Below, piece after piece: positions 16,089 to 34,961 of a stretch of 64,000 nucleotides of DNA. The DNA comes from Gammaproteobacteria bacterium (lineage in GTDB: Bacteria > Pseudomonadota > Gammaproteobacteria > JAABTG01). The stretch lies in assembly GCA_034522055.1 (NCBI GenBank), contig JAXHLS010000002.1:2294001-2358000 (forward strand), written 5' to 3'. Position numbers and translations under genes: made by a program. Numbering within the stretch: position 1 is the first letter of the stretch; each line of letters opens with the position of its first letter. The notes beneath the pieces are model-generated. The model saw only the letters and a list, made by a program, of their open reading frames with translations. It ran no database searches and was not told where the DNA came from.

Positions 16089-18079
16089 CGCGTCGTCACC
16101 GAGGGGTCGCCGGTCCAGGTCCGCCACAGCCCGTCAGCGCCCTTCCCGGGCGCCGCCGCCGTAGCGCCGGCCACGGTGCGGGATGAGTGGTCCTCGCTCA
16201 GGGGAAAGGCCACCTGGACCGCGGTCCCGCCCTGCGGGGTCTGCTCCAGGACCAGGGTGCCCCCGAGGCTCTCGGCCCGCTCGCTCATGATGGTCAGACC
16301 GTAGTGATGGACGCCGGCGCCAGCCGCGGCCAGGCCGATCCCGTCATCGCTCACGGTCACGGCGACCCGCCCGTCACCGCTGCAGTTCAGGGCAACGGTG
16401 GCGTGGGTCGCGCGGGCGTGATGGATCACATTGCTCAGGGCCTCGCGCACGATCTGCAACACATGGATCTCCTCATTGGGGCTCAGCCGGCAACCGCCGA
16501 GGCGGTTGTCCAGGTACAACCGGGTGGAGGTCCGGTCCTGCAGTTCCGCCACCGTCTCTTCCAGGGCCCGCGCGAGTCCGCGCCCGTCCATCTCCAGCCG
16601 GAAGGTGGTGAGCAGTTCCCGTAGTTGCCGGTAGGCCCCGTTGAGGCCGTCCTTCAGTTCGCGGATCAAGGGGGCGGTTGCATCGTCCGCCCCGCCCCGC
16701 GCCAGGGACGACTCCAGGCGGGCGACCTGGATCTTGAGATAAGACAAGGACTGTGCCAGGGAATCGTGAAGATCCCGGGCCAGGGCCGCCCGCTCCTCCA
16801 GAAGCGCAGCGCGATGCGTCTCCACGCTGCGCCGGCCGTTGGCCAGGGCCATGGTCACGTGGTTTCCAACCGCCGTGGCAAGCTGGAGCTGCCAGTCCTC
16901 GAGTCGGGCCCCGGGGCGTAACTCCAGATTGATCACGCCATAGGTTTGGCCCTTGTCCACCAGAGGCACCGTGAGCAGCCGCGCCGGCGCGCCGCCGTCG
17001 GGAAGGTGCCCGTCGCGGATCTCCGTCTGGCGCTGCTCCAGACACGGGGTGCAGGAAGGCGCAGCGCAGGTGCTCGTGGCGGTGGGTACGGTGATCCAGA
17101 CGTGTCCCCGGCCGTCCCCCGGGTCCACCATGCACAGGGCTCCGGAGGCGAGACCCAGGACTTCCCGCAGGTCGTCGAGCAGGGCCCGGTAGGTGGCCGC
17201 GACGGCGGGGGCCGAGTTGAGCCGGCTTAGGGTCCGGTAAAGCAGCTCGAGGGCCCGGTTGCTGCGGCGCAGGGCCTCGGTGCGCTCCGCCACCCGGGCC
17301 TCCAGGTCCCGGTATTGGGCGGAGAGGTCCTCGGCCATGCTGTTGAAGGCCCCTCCCAACTGCCCCAACTCGTGGCCGCTGGTATCGCTCACCCGCACGG
17401 AGAAGTCGCCTTTGCGGGCACGCTGGGCGCCCTTCAGCAGGGCCTTCAGGGGCACCAATACCTCCGTCTGCATGAAGTACATGGTGAGGAAGATCAGGGG
17501 CAGGGTCATGAAGAGGGTCGCGGTGTGCAGGGCCCTCAGGCTCAATACCTTGTCCTCGGAGCGTTGCTCCAGCATGCGGACGAAGCCGTCGATCCGCGTG
17601 ACCACCTCGCGGATCCCTTCCCGGGCCCGGTCTTGGGCCTGCTCCTGGGCCTGGGCCTGGCGCCGCGTCGCCTCATCCGTGCCAGGGTTCTTCACCTCCA
17701 GGTATTGCCGAAGCAACGGCCGCGCCACTTCCCCCCAGGCCTGCCCCAGCGCCCGGTATGACTGGCGTACCGGATCGGCGGGGTCGGTGGGGAGGACCTG
17801 GGTCAGGCGCGGATTGTGGTAGCGCTGGAGGAACGCCGCCTCGGCGGCGTCGAAGGCGGGGTCCGGCTCACCGCTCTCCGCGGGGGTCGTGGTCAGGGCG
17901 GTGCTCAAGGCCACGTAGGCCTGCATGCGCAGGGAACCCGCCTGGTTGATGGCGCTGGCGTCACCCAACAGTCGATCGGCAATGACCATGGAGGTCACCA
18001 TGCTCACCACCGCGAGCATCGTGATGCTCGCCATGAGCAGCCACAGGCGCACCAGCAACGAGTTCTTGGGCAGCGACAT
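16085..18079 (-). CDS. narX: NarX-type nitrate/nitrite sensor histidine kinase
   Basis: A 664-residue inner-membrane kinase. TM1 is at about 9-33, followed by the P-box-like nitrate-binding segment INQAGSLRMQAYVAL. TM2 is at about 188-208, followed by HAMP, a Cys-containing central module (CAAPSCTPCLEQRQ, as in NarX), HisKA_3 with the phospho-His in ALARDLHDSLAQSL, and a HATPase_c domain (NVIHHARATHATVAL, SDDGIGL). GGAG lies six bases before the ATG. Narrow coupling to narL. It faces away from the nar structural operon, with about 380 bp between. Confidence 0.93.
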   Translation of the reverse strand: MSLPKNSLLVRLWLLMASITMLAVVSMVTSMVIADRLLGDASAINQAGSLRMQAYVALSTALTTTPAESGEPDPAFDAAEAAFLQRYHNPRLTQVLPTDPADPVRQSYRALGQAWGEVARPLLRQYLEVKNPGTDEATRRQAQAQEQAQDRAREGIREVVTRIDGFVRMLEQRSEDKVLSLRALHTATLFMTLPLIFLTMYFMQTEVLVPLKALLKGAQRARKGDFSVRVSDTSGHELGQLGGAFNSMAEDLSAQYRDLEARVAERTEALRRSNRALELLYRTLSRLNSAPAVAATYRALLDDLREVLGLASGALCMVDPGDGRGHVWITVPTATSTCAAPSCTPCLEQRQTEIRDGHLPDGGAPARLLTVPLVDKGQTYGVINLELRPGARLEDWQLQLATAVGNHVTMALANGRRSVETHRAALLEERAALARDLHDSLAQSLSYLKIQVARLESSLARGGADDATAPLIRELKDGLNGAYRQLRELLTTFRLEMDGRGLARALEETVAELQDRTSTRLYLDNRLGGCRLSPNEEIHVLQIVREALSNVIHHARATHATVALNCSGDGRVAVTVSDDGIGLAAAGAGVHHYGLTIMSERAESLGGTLVLEQTPQGGTAVQVAFPLSEDHSSRTVAGATAAAPGKGADGLWRTWTGDPSVTTR

Positions 18080-18460: not shown

Positions 18461-21202
18461 ATGACGGGGACCACTAGCAACACAGACGGCAGGCGCGATC
18501 ATCCGGACGGGGACGAGCGCGTATTCGAGCGCGGGAAGCAGATCTCGGTGCTCACCATGAGCACCCTGGCCTTCACGGTGAATTTCGCCGTGTGGACCAT
18601 GTTCTCCATCATCGGCATCCGCATCAAAGACGAGCTGGGTCTCAACGAAACGGAGTTCGGCCTGCTGGTGGCCACTCCCATCCTGACCGGCTCCCTGGTA
18701 CGCCTGCCCCTGGGCATCCTCACCGACCGCTACGGCGGGCGTATCGTCTATTTCATCCAGATGATCCTGGTGGCGATCCCCACCTACGGGCTCGCCTTCG
18801 CCGACCAGTATTGGCAGTACCTGGTGATCGGCCTGTTCGTCGGCCTTGCGGGAGGCTCCTTCGCCATCGGCATCGCCTACACCTCGGCCTGGTTCGAGAA
18901 GAAGTACCAGGGCACGGCCATGGGTATCTTCGGGGCCGGCAACGCCGGGGCCGCGGTGACCAACCTGGTGGCACCCATGATCGTGGTGGCCCTGGGCTGG
19001 CGGGCGGTGCCCCAGATCTATTCCGTGGCCATGCTGGTGATGGCGGTGGTGTTCTGGTTCTTCACCTATCCCGACCCGGCCCAGCAGGAGCGCAAGCGCC
19101 GCAAGAGCCACATCACCCTCGCCGCTCAGCTCGCGCCCCTGACCGAGGCCCGGGTGTGGCGCTTCGGTCTCGCCTATTACTTCGTGTTCGGCGGCTTCGT
19201 GGCCCTGGCCCTGTGGTTGCCCAGGTACTACGTGGGCGAGTACGGCCTCGACCTGCAGACCGCCGCCCTGATCACCATCTTCTTCACCCTGCCATCGGGG
19301 TTGGTGCGCGCCTTGGGTGGTTGGATATCGGACCGCTACGGTGGCACCACGGTGACCTGGGCGGTGTTCTGGGTCTCCCTGGTGTGCCTGTTCTTCCTCT
19401 CCTACCCGGCCACCACCATGACCATCCACGGCATCGAGGGGGACGTCTCCTTCGAGGTGGCGGTAGGGGTGGTGATGTTTACGATGCTGGTGTTCGTGGT
19501 AGGGGTCGCGCAGGGCATCGGCAAGGCGAGCGTCTATCGCCTGCTGGCCGATTACTACCCCGGGAATATGGGTTCGGTGGGGGGCCTGGTGGGGGTCATC
19601 GGCGGGCTCGGGGGCTTCACCCTGCCGATCATGTTCGGGATCGCGGCGGATGCCCTCAACGTGCGCTCCTCGGCCTTCATGCTGCTCTACGGTGTGCTGG
19701 CGGGGGTGATGGTGTGGACCTGGCTCGCCGAACGGGCCGAACGCACCAATGTGCTGGAACGGCGCAGCGATCTGCAACAGGAACTGGTCAAGGAGCACCT
19801 CATATCGCGGGTGCGGCGTGGCCGCCACTGCCTCGAGGACTGGCGCCCCGAGGACCCGGAGTTCTGGGAGCGGCGCGGCAAGGCCATCGCCAACCGCAAC
19901 CTGTGGTTGTCCATGCCGGCGCTGCTCATCGCGTTCTCGGTGTGGCTGGTGTGGTCGGTGGTGGTGGTGCAGTTGCCCCGGGTCGGCTTCCAGTTCAGCC
20001 CCAGCCAACTGTTCTGGCTGGCCGCCCTGCCGGGCCTCTCGGGGGCCGCGTTCCGGGTCCTCTACGCCTTCATGGTGCCCATATTCGGGGGCCGCAACTG
20101 GACCGTGTTCAGTACCCTGGTGCTGCTGCTGCCGGCCCTCTGGATGGGCTTCGCGGTCCAGGATCCCGGTACCGATTATGCGGTGTTCGTGGCCGTCGCC
20201 CTGCTGTGCGGGCTCGGTGCGGGCAACTTCGCCTCCTCCATGGCCAATATCAGTTTCTTCTATCCCAAGTGGATGCAGGGCACGGCCCTGGGGTTGAACG
20301 CCGGGATCGGCAATCTGGGGGTGTCCCTGGTTCAGATCGTCACACCCCTGGTGATCTACTCGGGGGCCCTGATGTTCTTCGGGGGTGAGCCCCAGACCCA
20401 GGTGGTGGACGGCCAGCAGCGGCAGGTATGGCTGCAGAATGCGGGCTTCATCTGGGTCCCATTCATCCTGCTTTCCGCCTTCGCCTCGTATTTGGGGATG
20501 CACGACATCCGCCGGGTGCGGGGGACGTTCCGGGAGCAACTGGTGGTCTTTCGGCGCAAGCATCAGTGGCTCATGAGCGTGCTCTACACCGGTACCTTCG
20601 GCTCCTTCATCGGCCTCGCCGCCAGCTACCCCATGCTGGTGTCCAACCAGTTCCCCGACCAGGATGCCTTCAAGTATGCCTTCCTGGGGCCCCTGCTGGG
20701 GGCCCTGGTGCGGCCCGTCGGTGGTTGGCTCGCGGACCGCGTCGGGGGTGCCCGGGTCACCCTGGTGGTGTTCGCGGTCATGGCACTCGCGGCGCTGGCG
20801 GTCATCGGGACCCTCCCCGGCTACGGCGGCAGCGGCGATTACGAGGCCTTCCTGACTCTCTTCCTGGTCTTGTTCGCGGCCGCCGGCATCGGCAACGGCT
20901 CGACGTTCAAGATGGTGCCGGTGGTGTTCCACAAGCTCCACCTGCGCTGGTCCGAGGGGCTCGCCGACGAGGTGCGGGCGCGGGCCGTCATCGCCGGAGA
21001 CAAGGAGGCGGCAGCCGTCCTGGGGTTGTCGTCCGCCGTGGCGGCCTTCGGCGGTTTCTTCATCCCCATCGCCTATGCCACGGCCCTGGACCTGACCGGC
21101 GGGGTCACCGCGGCGCTGGGCTTCTTCACCCTGTTCTACCTCGCCTGTCTGGCCGTCACCTGGTGGTGGTACGGCCGCCGCGATGCGGAGGTGCCCTGCT
21201 GA
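18461..21202 (+). CDS. narK: Fused double NarK nitrate/nitrite transporter
   Basis: A 913-residue polytopic protein made of two complete major-facilitator units. Unit one (about 28-430) has RLPLGILTDRYGGR and FAIGIAYTSAWFEKKYQGTAMG. A charged linker follows. Unit two (about 485-905) has NLWLSMPALLIAFSVWLVW and GAGNFASSMANISFFYPKWM. Fusions of NarK1-like (nitrate/proton symport) and NarK2-like (nitrate/nitrite antiport) units are known, for example in Paracoccus. This is likely the first gene of the nar structural unit, directly behind the FNR and NarL sites. Confidence 0.93.
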   Translation: MTGTTSNTDGRRDHPDGDERVFERGKQISVLTMSTLAFTVNFAVWTMFSIIGIRIKDELGLNETEFGLLVATPILTGSLVRLPLGILTDRYGGRIVYFIQMILVAIPTYGLAFADQYWQYLVIGLFVGLAGGSFAIGIAYTSAWFEKKYQGTAMGIFGAGNAGAAVTNLVAPMIVVALGWRAVPQIYSVAMLVMAVVFWFFTYPDPAQQERKRRKSHITLAAQLAPLTEARVWRFGLAYYFVFGGFVALALWLPRYYVGEYGLDLQTAALITIFFTLPSGLVRALGGWISDRYGGTTVTWAVFWVSLVCLFFLSYPATTMTIHGIEGDVSFEVAVGVVMFTMLVFVVGVAQGIGKASVYRLLADYYPGNMGSVGGLVGVIGGLGGFTLPIMFGIAADALNVRSSAFMLLYGVLAGVMVWTWLAERAERTNVLERRSDLQQELVKEHLISRVRRGRHCLEDWRPEDPEFWERRGKAIANRNLWLSMPALLIAFSVWLVWSVVVVQLPRVGFQFSPSQLFWLAALPGLSGAAFRVLYAFMVPIFGGRNWTVFSTLVLLLPALWMGFAVQDPGTDYAVFVAVALLCGLGAGNFASSMANISFFYPKWMQGTALGLNAGIGNLGVSLVQIVTPLVIYSGALMFFGGEPQTQVVDGQQRQVWLQNAGFIWVPFILLSAFASYLGMHDIRRVRGTFREQLVVFRRKHQWLMSVLYTGTFGSFIGLAASYPMLVSNQFPDQDAFKYAFLGPLLGALVRPVGGWLADRVGGARVTLVVFAVMALAALAVIGTLPGYGGSGDYEAFLTLFLVLFAAAGIGNGSTFKMVPVVFHKLHLRWSEGLADEVRARAVIAGDKEAAAVLGLSSAVAAFGGFFIPIAYATALDLTGGVTAALGFFTLFYLACLAVTWWWYGRRDAEVPC

Positions 21203-22940: not shown

Positions 22941-25900
22941 ATGAGCCACTTTCTCGATCGCCTGATGTTTTTCAAGAAGGTCCAGTACGACTTCGCCGAC
23001 GGTCACGGGCAGACCACCCGGGAAGACCGGGCCTGGGAGAAGGCCTACCGCCAGCGTTGGCAGCACGACAAGGTGGTGCGTTCCACCCACGGGGTGAACT
23101 GCACCGGCTCCTGCAGTTGGAAGATCTACGTCAAGGACGGCCTGGTCACCTGGGAGACCCAGCAGACCGATTACCCGCGCACGCGTCCCGATCTCCCCAA
23201 TCATGAACCCCGCGGCTGCCCCCGGGGGGCCAGCTACTCCTGGTACATGTACAGCGCCAACCGGCTCAAGTACCCGATGGTGCGGGGCGCCCTGCTGCGC
23301 CAGTGGCGCCAGGCCCGCCAGCAGTACGACGACCCGGTGGAGGCCTGGGCCGCCATCGCGGGGGATCCCGACAAGGCGCGTGCCTACAAGTCGAAGCGCG
23401 GCCTGGGTGGCCTGGTGCGGGCAAACTGGGACGAGGTCAACGAGCTGGTGGCCGCCGCCAACGTCTATACCGCCAAGACCTGGGGGCCGGACCGGGTGGT
23501 GGGCTTCTCTCCCATCCCCGCCATGTCCATGGTCTCCTATGCCGCCGGCAGTCGCTATCTGTCCCTCATCGGCGGCGTCGCCTTGAGCTTCTATGACTGG
23601 TACTGCGACCTGCCCCCCAGTTCCCCCATGACCTGGGGCGAGCAGACCGACGTGGCCGAGTCGGCGGACTGGTACAACGCCGATTTCCTCATGATGTGGG
23701 GCTCCAACGTGCCCCAGACCCGCACCCCGGACGCCCATTTCATGACCGAGGCCCGCTACAAGGGCACCAAGGTGGTAGTGGTGTCTCCGGACTACGCCGA
23801 GAACACCAAGTTCGCCGACCTGTGGCTCTCACCCAAGCAGGGCACCGATGCGGCCCTGGCCATGGCCCTCGGCCACGTGGTGTTCCGGGAGTTCCATGTC
23901 GAGCGCCCGAGCGCCTACTTCCAGGACTACTGCCGGCGCTACACCGACATGCCGGTGCTGGTGTGCCTGGAGGAGACCGGACATGGTCTTACGCCCGGGC
24001 GCTACCTGCGTGCCAGCGACCTGGCCGGCGGCGCCGGCCAGGAGAAGAACCCGGAATGGAAGACCCTGGCGGTGGATACGGCCAGCGGCGATCTGGTGGT
24101 GCCCACCGGCTCGGTGGGATTCCGCTGGGACGGCTCCGGCAAGTGGAACCTGGAGTCCAGGGAGGGTAGTGAGGGGCGTGAGGTGGAACTGGCCCTCACT
24201 CTCCTGGATCGCCACGACACCGTGGCGGAGGTGGCGTTCCCCTATTTCGGCGGGATAGTCCACGACTACTTCCCCAACAATCCCCACCCGGAGGTGATTA
24301 CCCACCGCGTCCCGGCCAAGCGGATCATGCTCGCCGACGGACGGGAGGTGCTGGTGGCGACGGTGTTCGACCTCCAGGGAGCCCACTACGGGGTCGAGCG
24401 GGGGCTCGACGACCCCAACGCCGCCGCCGACTATGCCGAGGACAAGCCCTACACCCCGGCCTGGCAGGAAGCCATTACCTCGGTGCCCGCCGCCCACGTG
24501 ATACGGGTCGCCCGGGAGTTCGCCGACAACGCCGACAAGACCCGCGGGCGGTCCATGGTGATCGTGGGGGCCGGACTCAATCACTGGTACCACATGGACA
24601 TGAACTATCGGGGCATCATCAACCTGCTGATGATGTGCGGCTGCGTGGGTCAGTCCGGCGGCGGTTGGGCCCACTACGTGGGTCAGGAGAAGCTGCGGCC
24701 CCAGGCCGGCTGGCTGCCGCTGGCCTTCGCCCTGGACTGGTCGCGCCCGCCACGGCAGATGAACGGCACCTCCTTCTGGTACGCCCACAGCAACCAGTGG
24801 CGCTACGAGAAGCTGGGAGTGGCGGAGATCCTGTCGCCCCTGGCGGACGCCGACGCCTATGCCGGTTGCCTCATCGACTTCAATGTGCGCGCCGAACGCA
24901 TGGGCTGGTTGCCATCGGCGCCGCAACTGGGACGCAACCCACTGGAGGTGGCCCGGGAGGCGGCCGCCGCCGGCCAGGACCCCAAGGAGTACGTGGTCGA
25001 TCAACTCAAGTCCGGCGCCCTGCGCTTCGCCTGTGAGGATCCGGACAACCCGGCCAACTTCCCGCGCAACCTCTTCGTGTGGCGGTCTAACCTGCTGGGC
25101 TCCAGCGGCAAGGGCCACGAGTACCTGTTGAAGCATCTGCTGGGGACCAGCGATGGGGTCCAGGGTCCGGACATGAGCGCCGAGACCCGGCGCCCCCAGG
25201 AGGTGGAATGGCACGACGAGGCGCCGGAGGGGAAACTGGACCTGCTGGTGACCATAGACTTTCGCATGTCCACCACCTGCTTGTACTCGGACGTGGTGCT
25301 GCCCACCGCCACCTGGTACGAGAAGGACGACCTCAACACCTCGGATATGCACCCCTTCATCCACCCCCTGAGCGAGGCGGTGAACCCGGCCTGGGAGTCC
25401 CGCAGCGACTGGGAGATCTTCAAGGGTCTGGCGCGGGCCTATTCCCAAGTGGTGCCCGGGCACCTGGGGGTGGAGAAGGACATCGTGACCCTGCCCCTGC
25501 TCCATGACACCCCCACCGAATTGGGACAGGCCATGGAGGTGAAGGACTGGAAACGGGGGGAGGTGGAGCCCATACCGGGCAAGACCATGCCCCAGATCGC
25601 GGTGGTGGAGCGCGACTTTCCCGCCGTCTACGACCGCTTCACCAGCCTCGGCCCCCTGATGGAGTCCGCGGGCAACGCGGTCAAGGGCTTCGCCTGGGAC
25701 ACCAAGGACGAGGTGGCCTTTCTGGGCCAGTTGAACGGTGTGCGGGAGGGTGATGGCCCGACCGCGGGCCGGCCGCGCATCGATACCGCCATCGACGCCG
25801 CCGAGGTGATCCTGAGCCTGGCTCCGGAGACCAACGGGGAGGTGGCGGTAAAGACCTGGCAGGCCTTATCCCGCATCACCGGCCGCGAGCATGCCCACCT

Positions 25901-26690
25901 GGCGGCAGGGGCCCACCACACCAAGCACCGCTTTCACGACCTGGTGGCCCAACCGCGCAAGATCATCTCCGCTCCCACGTGGTCCGGCATCGAGTCCGAG
26001 GAGGTGAGCTACAACGCCGGCTGGACCAACGTCCATGAGTTGATCCCCTGGCGCACCCTCACCGGGCGCCAGCACTTCTACCAGGACCACCCCTGGATGC
26101 GGGCCTTCGGCGAGTCCCTGTCCAGCTACCGGCCGCCGGTGGACACCAAGACCCTGAAGGGGATCCATCAGGCCCGCAGCAACGGCCACAAGGAGATCGT
26201 GCTCAACTGGATCACCCCCCACCAGAAGTGGGGCATCCACAGCACCTACAGCGACAACCTGATCATGTTGACCCTGTCCCGGGGTGGTCCCTGCGTGTGG
26301 ATCTCCGAGGACGATGCCCGCGAGGCCGGCATCGAGGACAACGACTGGATCGAGGTGTTCAACGTCAACGGTGCGGTGGTGGCCAGGGCGGTGGTGTCCC
26401 AGCGGGTGCGCCCGGGCATGACCATGATGTACCACGCCCAGGAACGCATCGTGAACACCCCCGGCTCGGAGATCACCGGTCGCCGGGGGGGCATCCACAA
26501 CTCCGTGACCCGGGCCGTGGTCAAGCCGACCCATATGATCGGTGGCTACGCCCAGCAGGCCTATGGGTTCAACTATTACGGTACGGTCGGTTCCAACCGC
26601 GACGAGATGGTCATCTTGCGCAAGATGGCCAAGGTCGACTGGTTGGAAGGCGACGACACCAGCATTCTCGCTCAGAGGTACACACGATGA
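22941..26690 (+). CDS. narG: Respiratory nitrate reductase alpha subunit
   Basis: A 1249-residue catalytic subunit of the cytoplasm-facing membrane nitrate reductase, which reduces nitrate to nitrite with quinol electrons. The N-terminus MSHFLDRLMFFKKVQYDFADG resembles E. coli NarG and has no functional Tat signal. STHGVNCTGSCSWK (about 49-62) gives His and Cys ligands of the FS0 cluster. WYNADFLMMWGSNVPQTRT holds the Asp ligand to Mo-bisMGD. The stop overlaps the narH start (ATGA at 26687-26690). Gene order and length are canonical. Confidence 0.98.
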   Translation: MSHFLDRLMFFKKVQYDFADGHGQTTREDRAWEKAYRQRWQHDKVVRSTHGVNCTGSCSWKIYVKDGLVTWETQQTDYPRTRPDLPNHEPRGCPRGASYSWYMYSANRLKYPMVRGALLRQWRQARQQYDDPVEAWAAIAGDPDKARAYKSKRGLGGLVRANWDEVNELVAAANVYTAKTWGPDRVVGFSPIPAMSMVSYAAGSRYLSLIGGVALSFYDWYCDLPPSSPMTWGEQTDVAESADWYNADFLMMWGSNVPQTRTPDAHFMTEARYKGTKVVVVSPDYAENTKFADLWLSPKQGTDAALAMALGHVVFREFHVERPSAYFQDYCRRYTDMPVLVCLEETGHGLTPGRYLRASDLAGGAGQEKNPEWKTLAVDTASGDLVVPTGSVGFRWDGSGKWNLESREGSEGREVELALTLLDRHDTVAEVAFPYFGGIVHDYFPNNPHPEVITHRVPAKRIMLADGREVLVATVFDLQGAHYGVERGLDDPNAAADYAEDKPYTPAWQEAITSVPAAHVIRVAREFADNADKTRGRSMVIVGAGLNHWYHMDMNYRGIINLLMMCGCVGQSGGGWAHYVGQEKLRPQAGWLPLAFALDWSRPPRQMNGTSFWYAHSNQWRYEKLGVAEILSPLADADAYAGCLIDFNVRAERMGWLPSAPQLGRNPLEVAREAAAAGQDPKEYVVDQLKSGALRFACEDPDNPANFPRNLFVWRSNLLGSSGKGHEYLLKHLLGTSDGVQGPDMSAETRRPQEVEWHDEAPEGKLDLLVTIDFRMSTTCLYSDVVLPTATWYEKDDLNTSDMHPFIHPLSEAVNPAWESRSDWEIFKGLARAYSQVVPGHLGVEKDIVTLPLLHDTPTELGQAMEVKDWKRGEVEPIPGKTMPQIAVVERDFPAVYDRFTSLGPLMESAGNAVKGFAWDTKDEVAFLGQLNGVREGDGPTAGRPRIDTAIDAAEVILSLAPETNGEVAVKTWQALSRITGREHAHLAAGAHHTKHRFHDLVAQPRKIISAPTWSGIESEEVSYNAGWTNVHELIPWRTLTGRQHFYQDHPWMRAFGESLSSYRPPVDTKTLKGIHQARSNGHKEIVLNWITPHQKWGIHSTYSDNLIMLTLSRGGPCVWISEDDAREAGIEDNDWIEVFNVNGAVVARAVVSQRVRPGMTMMYHAQERIVNTPGSEITGRRGGIHNSVTRAVVKPTHMIGGYAQQAYGFNYYGTVGSNRDEMVILRKMAKVDWLEGDDTSILAQRYTR

Positions 26691-28243
26691 AGATCCGCGC
26701 TCAGATTGGAATGGTCCTCAACCTGGACAAGTGCATCGGTTGTCACACCTGCTCCATCACCTGCAAGAACGTGTGGACCTCCAGGGAGGGGATGGAGTAC
26801 GCCTGGTTCAACAACGTGGAGACCAAGCCGGGCATCGGCTATCCCAAGGAATGGGAGAACCAGGGGCGCTGGAACGGGGGTTGGCGCCGGACCGGCAACG
26901 CTAAGCTGGTGCCGCGCATCGGCGGCAAGTGGCAGGTGCTGGCGAACATCTTCGCCAACCCGGACCTGCCCCTCATCGATGACTATTACGAGCCCTTCAA
27001 CTTCGACTATCAGCGCCTGCACAACGCCCCGGAGTCCCGTGCCCAGCCCACGGCCAAGCCCTACTCCGCCATCACCGGCAAGCCCATGGACAAGATCGAA
27101 TGGGGGCCCAACTGGGAGGAGATCCTGGGCACGGAGTTCGCGAAGCGCTCCAAGGACGCCAACTTCGAGGCGGTGCAGAAGGAGATGTACGGGCAGTTCG
27201 AGAATACCTTCATGATGTACTTGCCGCGGTTGTGCGAGCACTGTCTCAACCCGACATGCGTCGCCGCCTGTCCCTCGGGGGCCATCTACAAACGGGAGGA
27301 GGACGGCATCGTCCTCATCGACCAGGACAAGTGTCGCGGCTGGCGCATGTGCATCAGCGCCTGTCCCTACAAGAAGATCTACTACAACTGGCAGTCCGGC
27401 AAATCGGAGAAGTGCATCTTCTGCTATCCCCGCATCGAGGCCGGCCAGCCCACGGTGTGTTCCGAGACCTGCGTCGGCCGGATCCGTTACCTGGGGGTGT
27501 TGTTGTACGACGCCGACCGTATCCACCAGGCGGCCAATGTCGCGCGGGAGCAGGACCTGTATCCGTCGCAGCTGGAGATATTCCTCGACCCTCATGACCC
27601 GGAAGTGATCGCCGCGGCCCGCGCCGACGGGGTCCCGGAGTCGTGGCTGGAGGCGGCGCGGCGTTCGCCCGTCTACAAGATGGCCATGGACTGGCAGGTG
27701 GCCTTCCCCCTGCACCCGGAGTACCGCACCCTGCCCATGGTCTGGTACGTGCCGCCCCTGTCCCCCATCCAGGCCGCCGCCGATGCCGGAAAGGTGGGCC
27801 AGGAGGGGCTCATTCCGGACGTGGATTCCCTGCGCATCCCCCTCAAGTACCTGGCCAATCTGCTCACTGCAGGGGATGAGGCTCCGGTGTCCCTGGCCCT
27901 CAAGCGCATGCTTGCCATGCGCGTGTACAAGCGCCGCCAGCGGGTGGACCACGTGGACGACCAAGCGGTGCTGGAGCAGGTGGGGCTCACCCCGGAGCGG
28001 GTGGAAGAGATGTACCAGACCATGGCCATCGCCAACTACGAAGACCGCTTCGTGGTTCCCACCGGCCACCGGGAGGATATGCCCGACCCGTACGGCACCC
28101 GCAGCGGCTGCGGCTTCACCTTCGGTGACGGTTGCAACACCCATGGCCTGTCCCAGGGCAACCTGTTCGGCAGCAAGGACCCGAAGCGGCGCAAGTTCGC
28201 CTATCCCTCGTGGACGGTGGAGGTCGACAATGACAAATCCTGA
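26687..28243 (+). CDS. narH: Respiratory nitrate reductase beta subunit
   Basis: A 518-residue iron-sulfur subunit. ATG at 26687 overlaps narG and starts MKIRAQIGMVLNLDKCIGCH. The cysteine clusters for one 3Fe-4S and three 4Fe-4S centres are all visible: CIGCHTCSITCKNVW near residues 16-30, CEHCLNPTCVAACPSGAIY and DKCRGWRMCISACPYKK near 185-230 (Trp in place of one Cys marks the 3Fe-4S site), and CIFCYPRIEAGQPTVCSETC near 245. It passes electrons from NarI hemes to NarG. Confidence 0.98.
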   Translation: MKIRAQIGMVLNLDKCIGCHTCSITCKNVWTSREGMEYAWFNNVETKPGIGYPKEWENQGRWNGGWRRTGNAKLVPRIGGKWQVLANIFANPDLPLIDDYYEPFNFDYQRLHNAPESRAQPTAKPYSAITGKPMDKIEWGPNWEEILGTEFAKRSKDANFEAVQKEMYGQFENTFMMYLPRLCEHCLNPTCVAACPSGAIYKREEDGIVLIDQDKCRGWRMCISACPYKKIYYNWQSGKSEKCIFCYPRIEAGQPTVCSETCVGRIRYLGVLLYDADRIHQAANVAREQDLYPSQLEIFLDPHDPEVIAAARADGVPESWLEAARRSPVYKMAMDWQVAFPLHPEYRTLPMVWYVPPLSPIQAAADAGKVGQEGLIPDVDSLRIPLKYLANLLTAGDEAPVSLALKRMLAMRVYKRRQRVDHVDDQAVLEQVGLTPERVEEMYQTMAIANYEDRFVVPTGHREDMPDPYGTRSGCGFTFGDGCNTHGLSQGNLFGSKDPKRRKFAYPSWTVEVDNDKS

Positions 28244-28955
28244 AGAGATGGCCCCCATGGATATCGTGAAGGTGATCGCCGTGCTCCTGCACTATCCCCA
28301 GGCGGAGGTTCAGGCGGCGGCGGCCGAGCTGCGGGATGCGATCACGGCCGCGCCCGACCTGCCGGCAGCGGAACGGGTCGCCCTGACGACCTTCCTCGCC
28401 CGTCTGGAGGAGGGTGACCTGCTGGATTTGCAGGCGGAGTACGTGGCCACCTTCGACCGCGGGCGGCGCCTGTCCCTGCACCTGTTCGAGCATATCCACG
28501 GCGAGTCGCGGGACCGGGGTCAGGCCATGGTGGACCTGTTGGCCCACTACCGGGCCGCCGGGTTGGAGCCGGCGGTATCGGAGCTGCCGGACTACTTGCC
28601 CCTGTTCCTCGAGTACTGTTCCCTGCTGCCCGCGCAGGCGGCCCGGGAATGGCTCGAGGGGGTGGGAGAACTGCTCGCCCTGTTACATGCCCGCCTGCAG
28701 CGGCGCGCCAGCCCCTACGCCCCCCTGTTCCCGCCCCTGCTGCGCCTGGCGGGTGTGGACCGGGAGCGGGTGCTGGAAGCCATCGCGCGGGAGGTCGCCG
28801 GGGAGTCCGACGATGCCACCCCCGGGGCCCTGGACCGGGATTGGCAGGAGGGGCCCGTCACCTTCGGCCCCGACGCGGCCGCCGGCTGCACCCCGGGAAG
28901 ACCCGCCGGCGGTGCGTCCGGCACCCAATGGGTGGCGCCGCCGCGGGCGCTTTGA
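28230..28955 (+). CDS. narJ: Nitrate reductase molybdenum cofactor assembly chaperone
   Basis: A 241-residue NarJ/TorD-family chaperone that helps insert Mo-bisMGD and FS0 into NarG; it is not part of the mature enzyme. ATG at 28230 follows GGAGG by seven bases and overlaps the narH end by 14 bp. Supporting sequence: LLHYPQAEVQAAAAELR, YVATFDRGRRLSLHLFEHIHGESRDRGQAM (the central NarJ signature) and ELPDYLPLFLEYCSLLP. The tail beyond about residue 195 is low in complexity. Confidence 0.95.
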   Translation: MTNPEEMAPMDIVKVIAVLLHYPQAEVQAAAAELRDAITAAPDLPAAERVALTTFLARLEEGDLLDLQAEYVATFDRGRRLSLHLFEHIHGESRDRGQAMVDLLAHYRAAGLEPAVSELPDYLPLFLEYCSLLPAQAAREWLEGVGELLALLHARLQRRASPYAPLFPPLLRLAGVDRERVLEAIAREVAGESDDATPGALDRDWQEGPVTFGPDAAAGCTPGRPAGGASGTQWVAPPRAL

Positions 28956-28986
28956 ATTCCGTTGCCATCGTCCCAGGAGGACTACC

Positions 28987-29673
28987 ATGGACCATCTTCA
29001 TGCCCTGCTGTTTCAGCTCTATCCTTACTTGGCCGGCGCCGTGTTCATCATCGGCAGCATCCTGCGCTTCGATGTCGCGCCCTACACCTGGAAGACCAAT
29101 TCCAGTCAGATCTTCCACAGTGGCCCGTCGTTCCGGCTCGCCAGCAACCTGTTCCACATCGGCATCCTGGCCCTCTTCTTCGGCCACCTGGTGGGGCTGC
29201 TCATGCCCCACTCCTGGTACCCGGTGTTCGGGCTCACCGCCGGCAGCAAGCAGGTCCTGTCCATGGTGGCGGGGGGCGTCTTCGGGCTCATCTGTCTGGT
29301 GGGCGCCACCATGCTCCTGCACCGGCGCCTGTTCAACGTCCGTATACGCGCCCACAACTCCCAGGGGGATACCTTCATCCTGGTGCTGCTCTACCTCCAG
29401 TTGCTCACCGGCCTGGTGACCATCTTTTCTTCCATGGGACACCTGGACGGCGAGATGATGATGGTGCTCACCACCTGGGCCCAGGATATCGTCACCTTCC
29501 ATGGTGGCGCGGGCCAGATCCTGGTGGATGCCCCCCTGGTGTACAAGGTGCACATCGTGCTCGGTATCACCATGTTCCTGGTGTTCCCCTTCACCCGCCT
29601 GGTGCATGTATGGAGCGCCCCGGTGTGGTACCTGGGGCGCTCCTACCAGTTGGTTCGGGAGCGGATCACCTGA
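28987..29673 (+). CDS. narI: Respiratory nitrate reductase gamma subunit (cytochrome b)
   Basis: A 228-residue five-helix membrane subunit that oxidises ubiquinol and carries two b hemes. Heme ligands are visible as FHIGILALFFGH (first His pair, about residues 56-66) and YKVHIVLGITMFLVFPFTRLVHVW (second pair near 186 and 204). AGGAGG lies a few bases upstream of the ATG at 28987. It closes the narGHJI block; a GC-rich hairpin follows before the DsrC-like gene. Confidence 0.97.
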   Translation: MDHLHALLFQLYPYLAGAVFIIGSILRFDVAPYTWKTNSSQIFHSGPSFRLASNLFHIGILALFFGHLVGLLMPHSWYPVFGLTAGSKQVLSMVAGGVFGLICLVGATMLLHRRLFNVRIRAHNSQGDTFILVLLYLQLLTGLVTIFSSMGHLDGEMMMVLTTWAQDIVTFHGGAGQILVDAPLVYKVHIVLGITMFLVFPFTRLVHVWSAPVWYLGRSYQLVRERIT

Positions 29674-29687
29674 CCTCGAGGGGTAGA

Positions 29688-29710
29688 GGGGTAGCCGCGG
29701 CGGCTACCCC
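29688..29710. other. Strong intercistronic hairpin after narI
   Basis: GGGGTAGCCG-CGG-CGGCTACCCC is a perfect 10-bp stem with a 3-base loop, starting 14 bp after the narI stop. No T-run follows, so it is not a classical rho-independent terminator on the plus strand. It could be a processing or stability element, or partly block read-through. Confidence 0.6.
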
Positions 29711-29827
29711 CACCCCGGCCCGATGGGCAATGGCAAAGGCCCGTCCGTAGTCGCAACATTGGACTCAAGGCACACGCTACAGGGGACACCCACCCGAGAG
29801 GGGGCCGTCCCCCGGAGACCACATACG

Positions 29828-30187
29828 ATGATTACCAAAGTGATTGACAAGAACCTGGACCTGGGTGGCCGCATGGTGCCTGTCGACGAGGAAGGCTACC
29901 TGGTGGATCCCGAGGACTGGGACCCGGAGGTGGCCGCGCGCCTGGCCGAGCAAGAGGGCCTGGAATTGAACGATGATCACTGGAAGGTGATCCGTTTCGT
30001 CCGCGACCATTACGCCGAACATCAGGTGGCGGTGGATGCCCGCTTCGTGATCCGCTACCTGGCGGAGGAACTGGGCAAGGGCAAGGACGCCCGGAGTTAC
30101 CTGTTCGAGCTCTTCCCCTACGGTTATGTCAAGCAGGCCTGCAAGGTTGCGGGCATGCGCCGGCCGCGGGCCTGGAGTACCGGTTGA
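29828..30187 (+). CDS. DsrC/TusE-family protein lacking the penultimate cysteine
   Basis: A 119-residue DsrC-fold protein (DSM/sulfur-relay family): LVDPEDWDPEVAARLAEQEG at 25-44, ELNDDHWKVIRFVRDHYAEH at 46-65, and LFPYGYVKQACKVAGMRRPR at 95-114. Cys105 occupies the position of the upstream DsrC cysteine. The residue 11 further on, normally the penultimate Cys of a flexible arm ending PTGC-V, is Trp116, and the end reads AWSTG. Canonical trisulfide transfer chemistry is therefore unlikely; a regulatory role is inference. ATG at 29828 follows a GGGGG-CCGT-CCCCC hairpin. It sits 154 bp after narI. Confidence 0.88.
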   Translation: MITKVIDKNLDLGGRMVPVDEEGYLVDPEDWDPEVAARLAEQEGLELNDDHWKVIRFVRDHYAEHQVAVDARFVIRYLAEELGKGKDARSYLFELFPYGYVKQACKVAGMRRPRAWSTG

Positions 30188-30262
30188 CCCGGGGATGGCG
30201 TGCCTTCGCCCTCGGGTCGGCCCCGGGGGCGAGACCGATGGTGCTACGCGGAGGACAGCGAG

Positions 30263-30754
30263 ATGCGCAAGGTGCGATGGAAAGGCAGCTTCCTGACCCA
30301 TATCGACTGCCTGGATACCGCCAAGACCCGCCTGTTTCGGTCCCTCGACGGCCTGGGCGAGGAGGTGGCGCGGGTCGAGCACTGCCAGGACATCGAGGAC
30401 CTGCTGCGGGATCTGAACGCCCGGGCGTCGGAACTCTACGGTAGTCCGGCCCCGGACCCGGATGCCGCCGCTCGCGTCCTGGGCGCCGCCAAGGCGGATG
30501 TGGAGCGGATCCTGGACCAGGGCCTGCCCCTGGCCGCCCTGGGCACCCCCTCCTGTCATGACTGCGGGATGTGCGATGTCACCGGTGAGCGGTTGCGCGA
30601 GTGGCTGGGGGAGGCGCGCTGCGACCCGGGCGGGACGCCGCGCGGGGCGGCCCCCTGGAACCCTGGGCACGGGGATGAAGCCGGCGATGAGGCCGGGAAC
30701 GAGGGAGAGACGGCCGCCAAGCGGACCGTCTCGGGAGGCCACGATGGGCGATGA
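30263..30754 (+). CDS. Unrecognised protein with a CxxCxxC motif
   Basis: A 163-residue soluble protein; the start at 30263 follows GGAGG by eight bases. The N-terminal part (VRWKGSFLTHIDCLDTAKTR, Cys16) continues to a helical middle (EEVARVEHCQDIEDLLRDLN, Cys41). Cys98, Cys101 and Cys104 form CHDCGMC, with Cys120 nearby; this could bind Fe-S, zinc or perform thiol chemistry. The last 40 residues are Gly/Pro/Glu-rich and weakly constrained. It lies between the DsrC-like and CBS genes and overlaps the latter by 11 bp. I do not recognise the family. Confidence 0.7.
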   Translation: MRKVRWKGSFLTHIDCLDTAKTRLFRSLDGLGEEVARVEHCQDIEDLLRDLNARASELYGSPAPDPDAAARVLGAAKADVERILDQGLPLAALGTPSCHDCGMCDVTGERLREWLGEARCDPGGTPRGAAPWNPGHGDEAGDEAGNEGETAAKRTVSGGHDGR

Positions 30755-31352
30755 TGGGCGGTCGAAACGGCCCGACAGAGAGGACTACGAGCGTGCCCTG
30801 AAGAGCATGGGTACCTTCGTGGATATCAGTGTCGATGATCTGATGAGCCTGACCCGCACCGCCGAACGCATCGCGCAACAGCACACCAAAGAGGTGAAGC
30901 GTATCGCCGACGTCATGACCTCCCCGGTGCAGGTGGTGCATCCGGAGACCCCGCTGTCTGCGGCCGCCCGCCTGATGATGACCCATCGTATCAGCGGTCT
31001 GCCGGTGGTGGATGGGACGGGGCGCGCCGTGGGCATCGTCAGCGAGACCGACTTCCTGCGTGCTCTCGGGGTACCGGGTCCCCATGCCAGTCATGGTTTT
31101 TGGCACGCCGTGAAGTCCGCCTTCACGAGGATGATGGCGCGACCTAAGGACCAGGACGCAGAGGCAAGCGTGGCCGATTACATGACTCCCGATGTGGTGT
31201 GTGCCGGTCCCGGGTCGGATCTGCATGACGTGCTCGACCTGATGCGCCGCCATCGGGTGGGGCGGGTGCTGGTATGCGACCCGGAGGGCCGTTGCGTCGG
31301 GGTCGTGACCCGCGCCGACCTGCTGCCCGTGTTCTTCGCGCCGGCGGACTAG
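30744..31352 (+). CDS. Two-CBS-domain protein
   Basis: A 202-residue protein with a 55-residue N-terminal helix region (YERALKSMGTFVDISVDDLM) and a CBS pair: VMTSPVQVVHPETPLSAAARLM...GLPVVDGTGRAVGIVSETDFL and YMTPDVVCAGPGSDLHDVLDLM...RVLVCDPEGRCVGVVTRADLL. CBS pairs bind adenine nucleotides or other ligands and regulate partners. No enzyme domain is attached. GGGAGG precedes the ATG. It is translationally linked to the CxxCxxC gene by an 11-bp overlap. A degenerate copy of its 3' end appears near 35105-35140. Confidence 0.85.
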   Translation: MGDDGRSKRPDREDYERALKSMGTFVDISVDDLMSLTRTAERIAQQHTKEVKRIADVMTSPVQVVHPETPLSAAARLMMTHRISGLPVVDGTGRAVGIVSETDFLRALGVPGPHASHGFWHAVKSAFTRMMARPKDQDAEASVADYMTPDVVCAGPGSDLHDVLDLMRRHRVGRVLVCDPEGRCVGVVTRADLLPVFFAPAD

Positions 31353-31414: not shown

Positions 31415-32377
31415 ATGGACGATGACAGGGTGAATCGAGGACTGGCATTGCGTTCCGGCGGCCTGACCTTGGCGGACTACGTGCCAACCTTTGGACAGGA
31501 CCTGCTGCATCGCTATGGTGTGCGGGTACACAAGGTCGCTCTCGACACCGCGTTCACTTGCCCGAACCGGGATGGTAGCAAGGGCCGCGGCGGTTGCACC
31601 TTCTGTAACAACGCATCTTTCAGTCCCCACGGGCGCAACCCGGTATCGGTAGCCGAACAGATCGAATCCGGGCGCCGGGTGGTCGCCAAACGTACCGGGG
31701 CGCGGCGTTTGCTGGCCTACTTCCAGGCCTACACCAACACCTACGCCGATACGGAACGGCTCGCCGCCCTGTACGGGGCGGCCCTCGCGGAGGAAGACGT
31801 CATCGGCTTGGCCGTGGGAACCCGTCCGGACTGTGTTGCACCCGCCACCCTGGACCTCCTCTGCAGCTACCGTGACCGGGGTTATGAGGTGTGGCTGGAG
31901 CTGGGACTGCAATCGGCCTTTGACGGCACCCTGGAGCGGGTCAACCGGGGCCACGGGTTCGCCGACTATCGCCGCACCCTGCTTGCAGCCCGCACACGGG
32001 GCCTCAAGGTGTGTACCCATCTGATCGTCGGATTGCCCGGGGAGACCGCAACCCACGCCCGGCAGACCCTGAAGCGGGTGTTGGAGCTGGGCGTCGATGG
32101 CCTGAAGCTCCATCCCCTACATGTGGTCAAGGGCACGGTCCTGGCCAACGAGTGGCGGCGCGGTGAGTACCTGCCGCTGACTCTCCCCGAGTATGTGGAG
32201 GTGGCCGCGGATTTGGTCCAGATGACCCCCCCCGGTGTGGTGTACCACCGGCTCACCGGTACCGCGCCACGGGGGATCCTTTTGGCTCCAGGGTGGTGCG
32301 CAGAGAAGTGGCGGGTGCTCAACGCCATTACCTGGGAGCTGCACCGGCGTGCCGTAAAACCCGCACCGCGAACGTGA
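31415..32377 (+). CDS. Radical SAM protein of the YhcC family
   Basis: A 320-residue protein of the TIGR01212/YhcC radical SAM group. The cluster-binding cysteines are Cys49, Cys61 and Cys64 (CPNRDG...GGCTFC), a CX11CX2C spacing typical of this group, not CX3CX2C. LAYFQAYTNTYAD and LELGLQSAFDGTLERVNRGH are further family signatures. The biochemical role of the family is not established. It lies directly ahead of ubiUVT, suggesting an anaerobic function. Start ATG at 31415 (MDDDRVNRGL). Confidence 0.85.
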   Translation: MDDDRVNRGLALRSGGLTLADYVPTFGQDLLHRYGVRVHKVALDTAFTCPNRDGSKGRGGCTFCNNASFSPHGRNPVSVAEQIESGRRVVAKRTGARRLLAYFQAYTNTYADTERLAALYGAALAEEDVIGLAVGTRPDCVAPATLDLLCSYRDRGYEVWLELGLQSAFDGTLERVNRGHGFADYRRTLLAARTRGLKVCTHLIVGLPGETATHARQTLKRVLELGVDGLKLHPLHVVKGTVLANEWRRGEYLPLTLPEYVEVAADLVQMTPPGVVYHRLTGTAPRGILLAPGWCAEKWRVLNAITWELHRRAVKPAPRT

Positions 32378-32460: not shown

Positions 32461-33456
32461 ATGGAACTGGTCTGTCCGGCAGGTAACCTGCCATCCCTCA
32501 AGGCCGCCGTGGACAACGGCGCCGATGCGGTCTACCTGGGTCTGCAGGGCGACACCAACGCGCGCCACTTTCCCGGTTTGAACTTCGACCAGCAACGGTT
32601 GGGTCAGGGGATCGACTACATCCACGCCCGAGGTCGTCGGGTTTTTCTGGCCATCAACACCTACCCCCAACCCGAGGGCTGGCACCGTTGGATACGCGCC
32701 GTGGACAGCGCCGCCGATCTGGGCGTGGACGCCCTGATCCTGGCGGATATCGGGATCATGGATTATGCCGCTCGGCGCTGGCCGGAACTGCCCCTACACC
32801 TGTCGGTACAGGCCTCTTGCACCAACTACGAGGCCCTGCGCTTCTACCATGAGCTGTTCGGCATCCGCCGCGCCGTAGTGCCTCGGGTCCTGTCCTTGGC
32901 CCAGGTGCGCCATACGGCAGCCAACAGCCCGGTGGACATCGAGGTGTTCGGCTTCGGCAGCCTGTGCGTGATGGTGGAGGGGCGATGCCTGCTGTCCTCC
33001 TATGCCACCGGCAAGTCCCCCAACACCTACGGCGCGTGCTCTCCCGCCGAGGCAGTGGCCTGGGTGGAATCCCCCCGGGGGCTCGAGTCGCGCCTCGGCG
33101 GGCTGCTCACCGACTGCTACGGCCCTGGAGAGGAGGCCGGTTATCCCACCATCTGCAAGGGTCGCTACCGGGTGGGGGGAAGTACCTACTACGCCATCGA
33201 GGAACCCATCAGCCTGAACACCCTGGAACTGCTGCCGGAACTGATGGCCGCCGGGGTGGCAGCAATCAAGATCGAGGGGCGCCAGCGCAGTCCGGCCTAT
33301 GTGGGCCAAGTGACACGCGTCTGGCGCCAGGCCATCGACGCCTGCCGGGCGCGGCCGAAGGCCTTCCGGGTGCGAGAGGACTGGTTCAGGGAACTGGCCA
33401 AAGTATCCGAGGGTGCACAGACCACTCTTGGCGCCTATCACAGGCCGTGGCAGTGA
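32461..33456 (+). CDS. ubiU: Oxygen-independent ubiquinone hydroxylase component UbiU
   Basis: A 331-residue U32-family protein. It begins MELVCPAGNLPSLKAAVDNGADAVYLG, the standard start of UbiU (formerly YhbU). Fe-S ligands are expected among SLCVMVEGRCLLSSY, YGACSPAEA and YPTICKGRY (four Cys in the order C-C-C-C). UbiU pairs with UbiV to hydroxylate the quinone ring without oxygen, apparently with prephenate as the oxygen source in E. coli. The location behind narGHJI supplies ubiquinol under anaerobic nitrate respiration. Confidence 0.93.
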   Translation: MELVCPAGNLPSLKAAVDNGADAVYLGLQGDTNARHFPGLNFDQQRLGQGIDYIHARGRRVFLAINTYPQPEGWHRWIRAVDSAADLGVDALILADIGIMDYAARRWPELPLHLSVQASCTNYEALRFYHELFGIRRAVVPRVLSLAQVRHTAANSPVDIEVFGFGSLCVMVEGRCLLSSYATGKSPNTYGACSPAEAVAWVESPRGLESRLGGLLTDCYGPGEEAGYPTICKGRYRVGGSTYYAIEEPISLNTLELLPELMAAGVAAIKIEGRQRSPAYVGQVTRVWRQAIDACRARPKAFRVREDWFRELAKVSEGAQTTLGAYHRPWQ

Positions 33457-33466
33457 GGAATGTGGC

Positions 33467-34360
33467 ATGAGTGAATACACCCCACGCCTGGCTCTGGGTC
33501 CGGTGCCCTACTACTGGTCCCGGAACGACTTGGAGAGTTTCTACGCCCAAGTTGCCGGCTGGCCGGTGGACATCGTCTACCTGGGCGAGACGGTTTGCTC
33601 CAAACGGCGCAGCCTATCCACCAACCAGTGGTTGGATTTGGCCGAAGGCCTGCGGGACCATGGAAAAGAAGTAGTTCTCTCCACCTTGAATCTGATCGAG
33701 GCGGAATCGGAGCTGACGGCCCTGCGCCGCTTATGCCGCAACGGGCGCTTCCCGGTCGAGGCCAATGACCTGGGTGCCGTGCGCCTGTTGATGGATATCG
33801 GCACTGCCTTCGTAACCGGCCCTACCCTGAATATCTACAACTCCGCGACCCTGGCCGTCCTCGCCCGTGGCGGCCTGCGTCGGTGGGCACTTCCCGTAGA
33901 GCTATCCCGGGATACCTTAGCGGATATGCAGGCAGCCCGCCCGGCGGGCGTACAAACCGAGGTGCTGGCCTACGGGCGCCTGCCGCTGGCCCTGTCGGCC
34001 CGATGCTTCACTGCCCGCTCGCGCAACCTGCCCAAGGATAAGTGCCGATTCTGCTGTTCGGAAGACCCAGAGGGGCGCTTAGTGCAGACCCAGGAGGACG
34101 CCCCGTTCGTGGTTTTGAACGGCATTCAGACCCTGTCCGCCGCCACCTGCAACTTGCTGCCACACCTGGCGGAGTTGCGAAGACTCGAGGTGGACGTGCT
34201 GCGCATCACTCCGCAGTCCCTCGACACCGAACGGGTGGTGCGTGCGTTCGTCGATGAACTCTCAGGAGCCCCCGGAAAGTGCGACCTTGCTCCCTTGGCG
34301 CCCCAGGGCCTTGCCGACGGCTATTGGCGCGGGGAAGCGGGCATGGAAGCGCCACCTTGA
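33467..34360 (+). CDS. ubiV: Oxygen-independent ubiquinone hydroxylase component UbiV
   Basis: A 297-residue U32-family protein, partner of UbiU. It begins LALGPVPYYWSRNDLESFYAQVAGWPVDIVYLGETVCSKRR, matching UbiV (formerly YhbV). The Fe-S ligand set is Cys near 39, then CFTARSRNLPKDKCRFCC around 181-198. There is an extra Cys next to the usual pair (KCRFCCSED). It is 10 bp behind ubiU. The two form a heterodimer carrying two 4Fe-4S clusters in E. coli. Confidence 0.92.
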   Translation: MSEYTPRLALGPVPYYWSRNDLESFYAQVAGWPVDIVYLGETVCSKRRSLSTNQWLDLAEGLRDHGKEVVLSTLNLIEAESELTALRRLCRNGRFPVEANDLGAVRLLMDIGTAFVTGPTLNIYNSATLAVLARGGLRRWALPVELSRDTLADMQAARPAGVQTEVLAYGRLPLALSARCFTARSRNLPKDKCRFCCSEDPEGRLVQTQEDAPFVVLNGIQTLSAATCNLLPHLAELRRLEVDVLRITPQSLDTERVVRAFVDELSGAPGKCDLAPLAPQGLADGYWRGEAGMEAPP

Positions 34361-34478: not shown

Positions 34479-34961
34479 ATGAGTCAGAAGTCCCCAGCCC
34501 CCCGACTGCCCCGAGCCCTGACGTTGCCCCTGAGCCTGCTCCCCGACAAATTGCACGGCGCCGTCGCCGCCGCCACCCTGCACCGGGTCTTCGCCGCGCA
34601 ACGGGCCGGTGGCGAGCTGGATTTCATGGATGGCAAGACGACCCACATCCGAGTTCTGGACGCCGGTGTTTGCCTGCGACTCACCCTGGGTGAGAAGGGT
34701 TTTGCGGTGGACGACTCCGGGGAATCCCCCGACCTGCTGGTCCAGGGGACAGCCTATGATTACCTGTTGCTTCTGAGCGGGGACGAGGACCCGGACACGC
34801 TGTTCTTCCAGCGCCGCCTGCGCATGTCCGGCGACACGGCCCTCGGCGTACACTTGAAAAATTTCCTCGCCTCGGCGGAACCGGGCTCGCTGCCCTTGTT
34901 TGCTCTTGCGGTCCCGCTCCTGCAGCGGGGCATGCGGTGGTTCGAACGCGTGCTCGGCTGA
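34479..34961 (+). CDS. ubiT: SCP2-domain ubiquinone biosynthesis factor UbiT
   Basis: A 160-residue protein with an SCP2 sterol-carrier-like fold: LHRVFAAQRAGGELDFMDGKTTHIRVLDAG, PDLLVQGTAYDYLLLLSGDEDPDTLFFQRRLRMSG and a C-terminal basic/aromatic end MRWFERVL. UbiT (formerly YhbT) is the anaerobic counterpart of UbiJ and presents prenylated intermediates to UbiUV. GGAG lies eight bases before ATG at 34479. It completes ubiUVT in order. Confidence 0.9.
   Translation: MSQKSPAPRLPRALTLPLSLLPDKLHGAVAAATLHRVFAAQRAGGELDFMDGKTTHIRVLDAGVCLRLTLGEKGFAVDDSGESPDLLVQGTAYDYLLLLSGDEDPDTLFFQRRLRMSGDTALGVHLKNFLASAEPGSLPLFALAVPLLQRGMRWFERVLG

Follow-up and report, generated by a model that had tools for sequence, protein, structure and literature searches.

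DsrC has a central place in dissimilatory sulfur metabolism, and genes of the DsrC family serve as markers of the sulfur cycle. TusE, its relative of the E. coli type, carries sulfur on the penultimate cysteine, and DsrC proteins without this residue are said to be regulators, an idea that goes by the name of 'RspA'. In the DsrC of Allochromatium vinosum, persulfide and sulfite bind to the penultimate cysteine (CysA) only, and this cysteine has been stated to be conserved in all DsrC sequences (PMC3397948). Also of relevance here are the membrane proteins of the HPP family (PF04982), together with the CBS proteins that accompany them: one HPP protein is a candidate transporter of nitrite (PMC4137279), and in Desulfovibrio desulfuricans NO induces an HPP gene (PMC5701242). 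The nnrS gene is part of NO regulons (PMC1274295).

Here, we have analysed a window of 64,000 nucleotides from a gammaproteobacterial genome, in which three small genes, encoding a DsrC-like protein, a protein with a CxxCxxC motif and a protein with a CBS pair, follow the nitrate reductase genes narGHJI. We show that the DsrC-like protein belongs to a subfamily, called W-type below, that has tryptophan in place of the penultimate cysteine and is linked to genes of nitrogen-oxide (N-oxide) metabolism. The W-type protein is a variant of the known DsrC family and not a new kind of system. A literature search, with the main DsrC review outside its scope, found no relevant paper on a nitrate-linked DsrC.

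Layout of the nar-ubiUVT locus

From narK (18461) to ubiT (34961), every gene lies on the forward strand and the gaps are short. The features are as follows.

22941-29673, forward: narGHJI, from the reading frames
22941-26690, forward: narG (TIGR01580, 2216.6 bits)
about 26687-28243, forward: narH, named by position and matches to nar loci elsewhere
about 28248-28955, forward: narJ, named in the same way
about 28987-29673, forward: narI, named in the same way
29680-29716, forward: GC-rich hairpin between narI and the dsrC-like gene, with no T-run
29828-30187, forward: W-type DsrC-family protein, 119 residues (TIGR03342, PF04358, AlphaFold, subfamily tree)
30263-30754, forward: degenerate bacteriohemerythrin-like protein, 163 residues, with a C-terminal CxxCxxC (weak bacteriohemerythrin matches of its homologues)
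30744-31352, forward: CBS-pair protein, 202 residues, a free-standing relative of the HPP-tail/CBS family
31415-32377, forward: radical SAM protein TIGR01212 (MnmL/YtqA-type, tRNA-modifying; 361 bits, cut-off 180)
32461-33456, forward: ubiU (NF047963, 549.7 bits, cut-off 440)
33467-34360, forward: ubiV (NF047965, 378.8 bits, cut-off 275)
34479-34961, forward: ubiT, SCP2 domain (NF047962, 116.4 bits, cut-off 46.9)

An earlier note on this DNA had described the three genes as lying on one strand between narGHJI and ubiUVT, with the middle and the CBS reading frames overlapping by 11 bp. The sequence confirms the genes, their positions, the strand and the overlap; the placement also stands, except that the note overlooked the TIGR01212 gene, which follows the CBS gene at a distance of 60 bp and separates it from ubiU. 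The note had also pointed to a hairpin after narI (29688) as a place where transcription might stop. The hairpin is real, and the intergenic stretch as a whole folds with a z of -2.2, but it has no T-run and was not called in the search for intrinsic terminators. An intrinsic terminator after narI was thus rejected, and the hairpin is no argument against read-through. In the window, no LysR site matching those of other loci was found near the trio, and the count of FNR-like boxes was not above chance.

Upstream of the nar region, the window also holds a mobile mystery protein A/B pair (13158-14209; TIGR02612/TIGR02613). A nitrate sensor kinase of the NarX/NarQ type (16085-18079, reverse strand) is divergent from the narK genes, the first of which (18461-21202) encodes a double-module NarK-type transporter of 913 residues and is followed by the second.

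A W-type subfamily of DsrC

The DsrC-like protein scores 108.9 bits against TIGR03342 (cut-off 53.5) and 121.5 bits against PF04358, which places it in the DsrC/TusE/DsvC superfamily. The AlphaFold model (pLDDT 89) predicts with confidence a DsrC fold with a loose tail, and its best match in the PDB is the DsrC of A. vinosum (1yx3; 42% identity, TM 0.83/0.88), with which it has in common the predicted fold, the flexible arm and the inner cysteine (CysB). Alignment to DsrC and TusE bears out the earlier reading that Cys105 (CysB) is retained and that Trp116 stands at the position of the penultimate cysteine; the tail is ACKVAGMRRPRAWSTG, compared with ACKYAGLPKPTGCV in the host's own canonical DsrC. 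The protein thus lacks one of the two C-terminal cysteines of a dissimilatory DsrC, and no dsrAB lies near the window gene. Superfamily and size are in common with TusE, but the protein reaches 87.5 bits against an equivalog cut-off of 191 (NF008562) and is without the penultimate cysteine. The loss of CysA that marks RspA-type proteins is seen in it.

Among 274 genomes of the class, the orthologues of this protein have 48-69% identity and align through the last residue. C105, W116, S117 and G119 are invariant across 18 diverse W-type members, and the tail can be written as RPR[A/G]W[S/T]xG. In a tree of 133 DsrC-family sequences, which is built on few columns and whose bootstrap is not fully settled, all 107 W-type rows form one clade (support 97/99), separate from the canonical two-cysteine DsrC. 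A neighbouring clade (support 100/98), from which the canonical DsrC is also separate, has likewise lost CysA and kept CysB; its tail is RKPRKLMLDV, ending in LMLDV and not WSTG, and some of its members are linked to HPP, CBS, LysR or nirBD. The claim of a penultimate cysteine common to every DsrC sequence (PMC3397948) fails for the W-type subfamily. Since persulfide binds only to this cysteine, which the W-type proteins have lost, they cannot act as sulfur carriers of the ordinary kind.

At least 556 stretches with relatives came out of a genome-wide scan, and we analysed the 80 best-scoring loci, which were picked by the protein alone and are rich in Thiobacillus. They include Thiobacillus, Thioalkalivibrio denitrificans, Thiohalomonas denitrificans, Thiomargarita, Parabeggiatoa, Burkholderiaceae and others. 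Within 6 kb of the W-type gene in these best 80, we counted narGHJI in 14, NnrS in 15, HPP in 23, NsrR in 7, the flavohaemoglobin Hmp in 6, a matching divergent LysR family in 30 and TIGR01212 in 4; at least one N-oxide gene was present in 44 of the 80. The W-type gene lies by nar in the window, in Thiobacillus and in Acidiferrobacteraceae; elsewhere its neighbours are nap (Thiotrichaceae), nirBD, NnrS, or a divergent LysR together with an HPP membrane protein, often accompanied by NsrR and Hmp. Thiobacillus denitrificans is among the species that have the gene near both narGHJI and NnrS. The order in Thiobacillus is narGHJI, a flavoprotein resembling sulfide:quinone reductase, W-type dsrC and then NnrS; this flavoprotein fills the gap between narI and W-type dsrC in L119, L139, L141, L147, L158, L166, L174, L180, L184, L186 and L187 (Thiobacillus and relatives). 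In another genome (G197), nirBD is followed by W-type dsrC. Between LysR and dsrC, we observed a conserved operator-like site, ATATCG-N6-CGATATTA (L110, L111, L115, L118, L128 and others), followed by a second AT-rich block with a TCGTT[TG] end.

Neither an N-oxide gene nor LysR was found in 30 of the 80 loci, and the W-type genes of Burkholderiaceae lie a few kb from dsrAB; the association is therefore not universal. Two of these 30 are Thiotrichaceae loci in which nap genes (napGHBC or napBC) stand directly upstream of W-type dsrC, so that both kinds of nitrate reductase are involved. As exceptions to the general avoidance of dsrAB by W-type genes, arrangements with dsrAB also occur as dsrAB-CBS-dsrC (L067, L155), CBS-dsrAB-dsrC (L098) and CBS/dsrC/LysR/dsrAB (L157).

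A sample of the class, less biased than the 80 best-scoring loci, provided a control. An N-oxide gene was nearby in 10 of 36 W-type loci and in 1 of 25 other DsrC loci (p 0.017), and LysR in 10/36 and 0/25, respectively. For dsrAB the relation was reversed (1/36 and 17/25), i.e. unlike those of dissimilatory DsrC, W-type genes are seldom beside dsrAB in this sample. The N-oxide sum, LysR and dsrAB were significant; single N-oxide families were not. At the level of genomes, narG is present in 15 of 33 with a W-type gene and in 29 of 241 others (p 1.6e-5), or in 15/33 and 7/107 when only genomes with a DsrC-family gene are compared (p 1.1e-6), where the W-type genomes were taken from the table of matches, from which some weakly matching members could be absent, and where the genomes counted include relatives that are not independent. 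On the DsrC tree, the nar context needs seven changes, at least four of which are forced by well-supported branches, and it is therefore not one inherited accident. We consider the link of the W-type to nitrate and N-oxide genes to be well supported.

The host is a sulfur-oxidising, denitrifying bacterium. As it has a nirS cluster (cd1 nitrite reductase), nirB, and dsrAB with a canonical DsrC, it is able to produce both nitrite and NO, and a sulfur relay is present as well. Its genome also has further DsrC-like copies. A second W-type dsrC on contig C2 near 2971.2 kb (L203, 7180-7450) is a remnant that misses its N-terminal half, with the frame shifted before a tail ending in QQACKVAGMRRPRAWSTG. 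Near 1131 kb of C2 (L197, 7108-8442), there is an LMLDV-type DsrC with a divergent LysR and a damaged N-terminus, and at 3655.5 kb (L202, 5506-5880), about 7 kb ahead of the nirS-type cluster (3662.2 kb), a DsrC-like gene encodes a product that is poor in cysteines and lacks those of the C-terminus. Contig C3 (L096) carries a CBS-HPP-DsrC(LMLDV) set with reverse-transcriptase reading frames inside that resemble group II introns.

The CBS and CxxCxxC proteins

The CBS pair assigned earlier to the third protein is borne out by two CBS domains (Pfam E 1.4e-35), and its motifs GIVSETD and GVVTRAD, read directly from the translation, appear to be intact and of the nucleotide type. Among 369 genomes of the class, 13 had any match at E < 1e-20. 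In all ten loci besides the window (E below 1e-21, four partial, weaker matches being left out), the homologue is accompanied by HPP, NsrR, NnrS, the same LysR or a DsrC-family gene. Moreover, a match to the cytosolic tail was obtained for residues 13-44 of this CBS protein with each of the 21 HPP proteins tested (z 5.7-9.3), i.e. it shares the segment in which HPP proteins end. The neighbours and this N-terminal segment place it in the HPP-associated CBS family. Unlike the HPP/CBS sets elsewhere, the trio has no adjoining HPP gene; the host's HPP is on contig C3 with another CBS gene. That the relatives go with HPP, NsrR and NnrS points to nitrite and NO, and the earlier suggestion that the CBS protein senses energy charge is not specifically supported. 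A compact N-oxide module, HPP-CBS-NnrS followed by NsrR and then by a cysteine-poor DsrC-like gene, occurs in L097 (G311).

The middle protein has the motif C98-H-D-C-G-M-C104, as was noted before, and itself matches no NCBIfam or Pfam family. Three homologues were found in three other genomes among those searched, and the CxxCxxC is invariant in all four sequences. Two of the three homologue genes adjoin an rpoH-like sigma-factor gene, and none of the three loci has a W-type dsrC beside it. The first ~50 residues of the homologues match the bacteriohemerythrin models of NCBIfam (NF033749, TIGR02481) weakly, with E-values of 1.7e-5 to 6.5e-4, below the cut-offs (at best 24.9 bits, compared with 84). 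Pfam and HHalign comparisons of the middle protein with local hemerythrins gave no match; its AF2 model is of low confidence, and Foldseek gave no informative match. Compared with bacteriohemerythrin, the family mostly lacks the iron-binding histidines and has the C-terminal CxxCxxC instead. Judging from these sequences, we take the middle protein to be a degenerate hemerythrin relative that may have a metal or thiol site.

As we never found the CxxCxxC gene next to its two neighbours in any other genome searched, the proposed joint function of the three genes falls, and the trio was rejected as a conserved unit. It is unique to the host among the genomes searched, while the DsrC-nar and CBS-DsrC pairs recur. 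The suggested link to nitrate respiration holds for the DsrC-like gene (by neighbourhood, co-occurrence and tree) and for the CBS family (by neighbourhood) but not for the CxxCxxC gene, which would be a lineage-specific rider.

Possible roles of the W-type protein

Our results suggest that the W-type is a branch of the DsrC family that has moved from sulfur transfer to nitrogen-oxide metabolism. The reading that we hold to be just on the probable side is that the W-type dsrC and CBS genes serve in the handling of nitrite and NO as accessories added to the nar-ubiUVT directon, the DsrC variant being a one-cysteine adaptor or a thiol switch. This directon of anaerobic respiration runs from narKK-GHJI through the block with the three small genes to ubiUVT, the oxygen-independent ubiquinone genes. 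The W-type subfamily would have left the sulfur pathway: it keeps CysB, the flexible arm at the C-terminus and the predicted DsrC fold but has the conserved tryptophan instead of CysA, and lacking CysA, it cannot carry persulfide by the known route. Most likely, the protein is expressed together with nitrate reduction as a single-cysteine adaptor or thiol switch. As to its docking partner and thiol chemistry, our guess is that the arm docks on a siroheme enzyme or a sulfurtransferase, or on LysR or nitrite-transport partners. From the gene contexts we infer a role in nitrite/NO handling, in which the protein would tune the handling of sulfur or nitrite as nitrite and NO accumulate. HPP-type proteins are putative nitrite transporters, and the CBS protein, which is related to their cytosolic tail but stands by itself, probably acts as the relay for a ligand that it binds; that HPP is a nitrite carrier in these bacteria is an extrapolation.

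A sulfur- or redox-state regulator, as guessed in the earlier note, is possible. That the W-type protein is, in the sense of the 'RspA' idea, a DNA-binding regulator acting on nar or sulfur genes seems unlikely to us. The absence of CysA argues against sulfur transfer (PMC3397948), and the pairing with a divergent LysR in 30 of the best 80 loci, with the operator-like site in between, would fit a regulator; however, LysR is the obvious regulator at those loci, with the dsrC gene as its apparent target, and the conserved Cys105 and the arm tail suggest chemistry of the thiol or docking kind. We give a small chance to the reading that the W-type protein competes with DsrC at DsrAB without itself carrying sulfur, its tryptophan arm plugging the siroheme site and throttling sulfur oxidation under nitrate. 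The fold and the arm are kept, the host has dsrAB and a canonical DsrC, and W-type genes accompany dsrAB in L067, L155, L098 and a Burkholderiaceae locus, yet dsrAB is beside 1 of the 36 W-type genes of the class sample.

The TIGR01212 gene, 60 bp behind the CBS gene and within 6 kb in 4 of the 80 loci, might suggest that the W-type protein serves with this MnmL-type neighbour as a TusE-like relay for the modification of tRNA wobble uridine, but the low score against the TusE model (87.5 bits, cut-off 191), the loss of the sulfur-binding cysteine in the whole subfamily and an association rarer than that with N-oxide genes make this highly improbable. It is also very unlikely that the genes behind narI are altogether unrelated hitch-hikers. 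The uniqueness of the trio to the host and the absence of the middle gene from the company of the others elsewhere speak for such a chance neighbourhood, which stands for the CxxCxxC gene; for the DsrC and CBS genes it is unlikely, as the W-type DsrC-nar and CBS-DsrC pairs are found repeatedly in lineages without close kinship, in line with the statistics and the tree.

Returning to the W-type protein as a nitrite/NO-handling accessory, we tentatively extend this reading, in a form that falls short of being probable, to the LMLDV clade. The two clades could together be an unrecognised N-oxide branch of DsrC, whose one-cysteine proteins may sense or buffer nitrite and NO, e.g. by S-nitrosation of CysB, and link denitrification with the sulfur relay in sulfur oxidisers. 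The W-type patterns have matches in several hundred stretches of genomes, whose annotation as 'TusE/DsrC/DsvC sulfur relay' would mislead. If the link to nitrite and NO is true, the W-type protein would be a molecular handle on the coordination of sulfur oxidation and denitrification in Thiobacillus, Thioalkalivibrio, Thiomargarita and their relatives.
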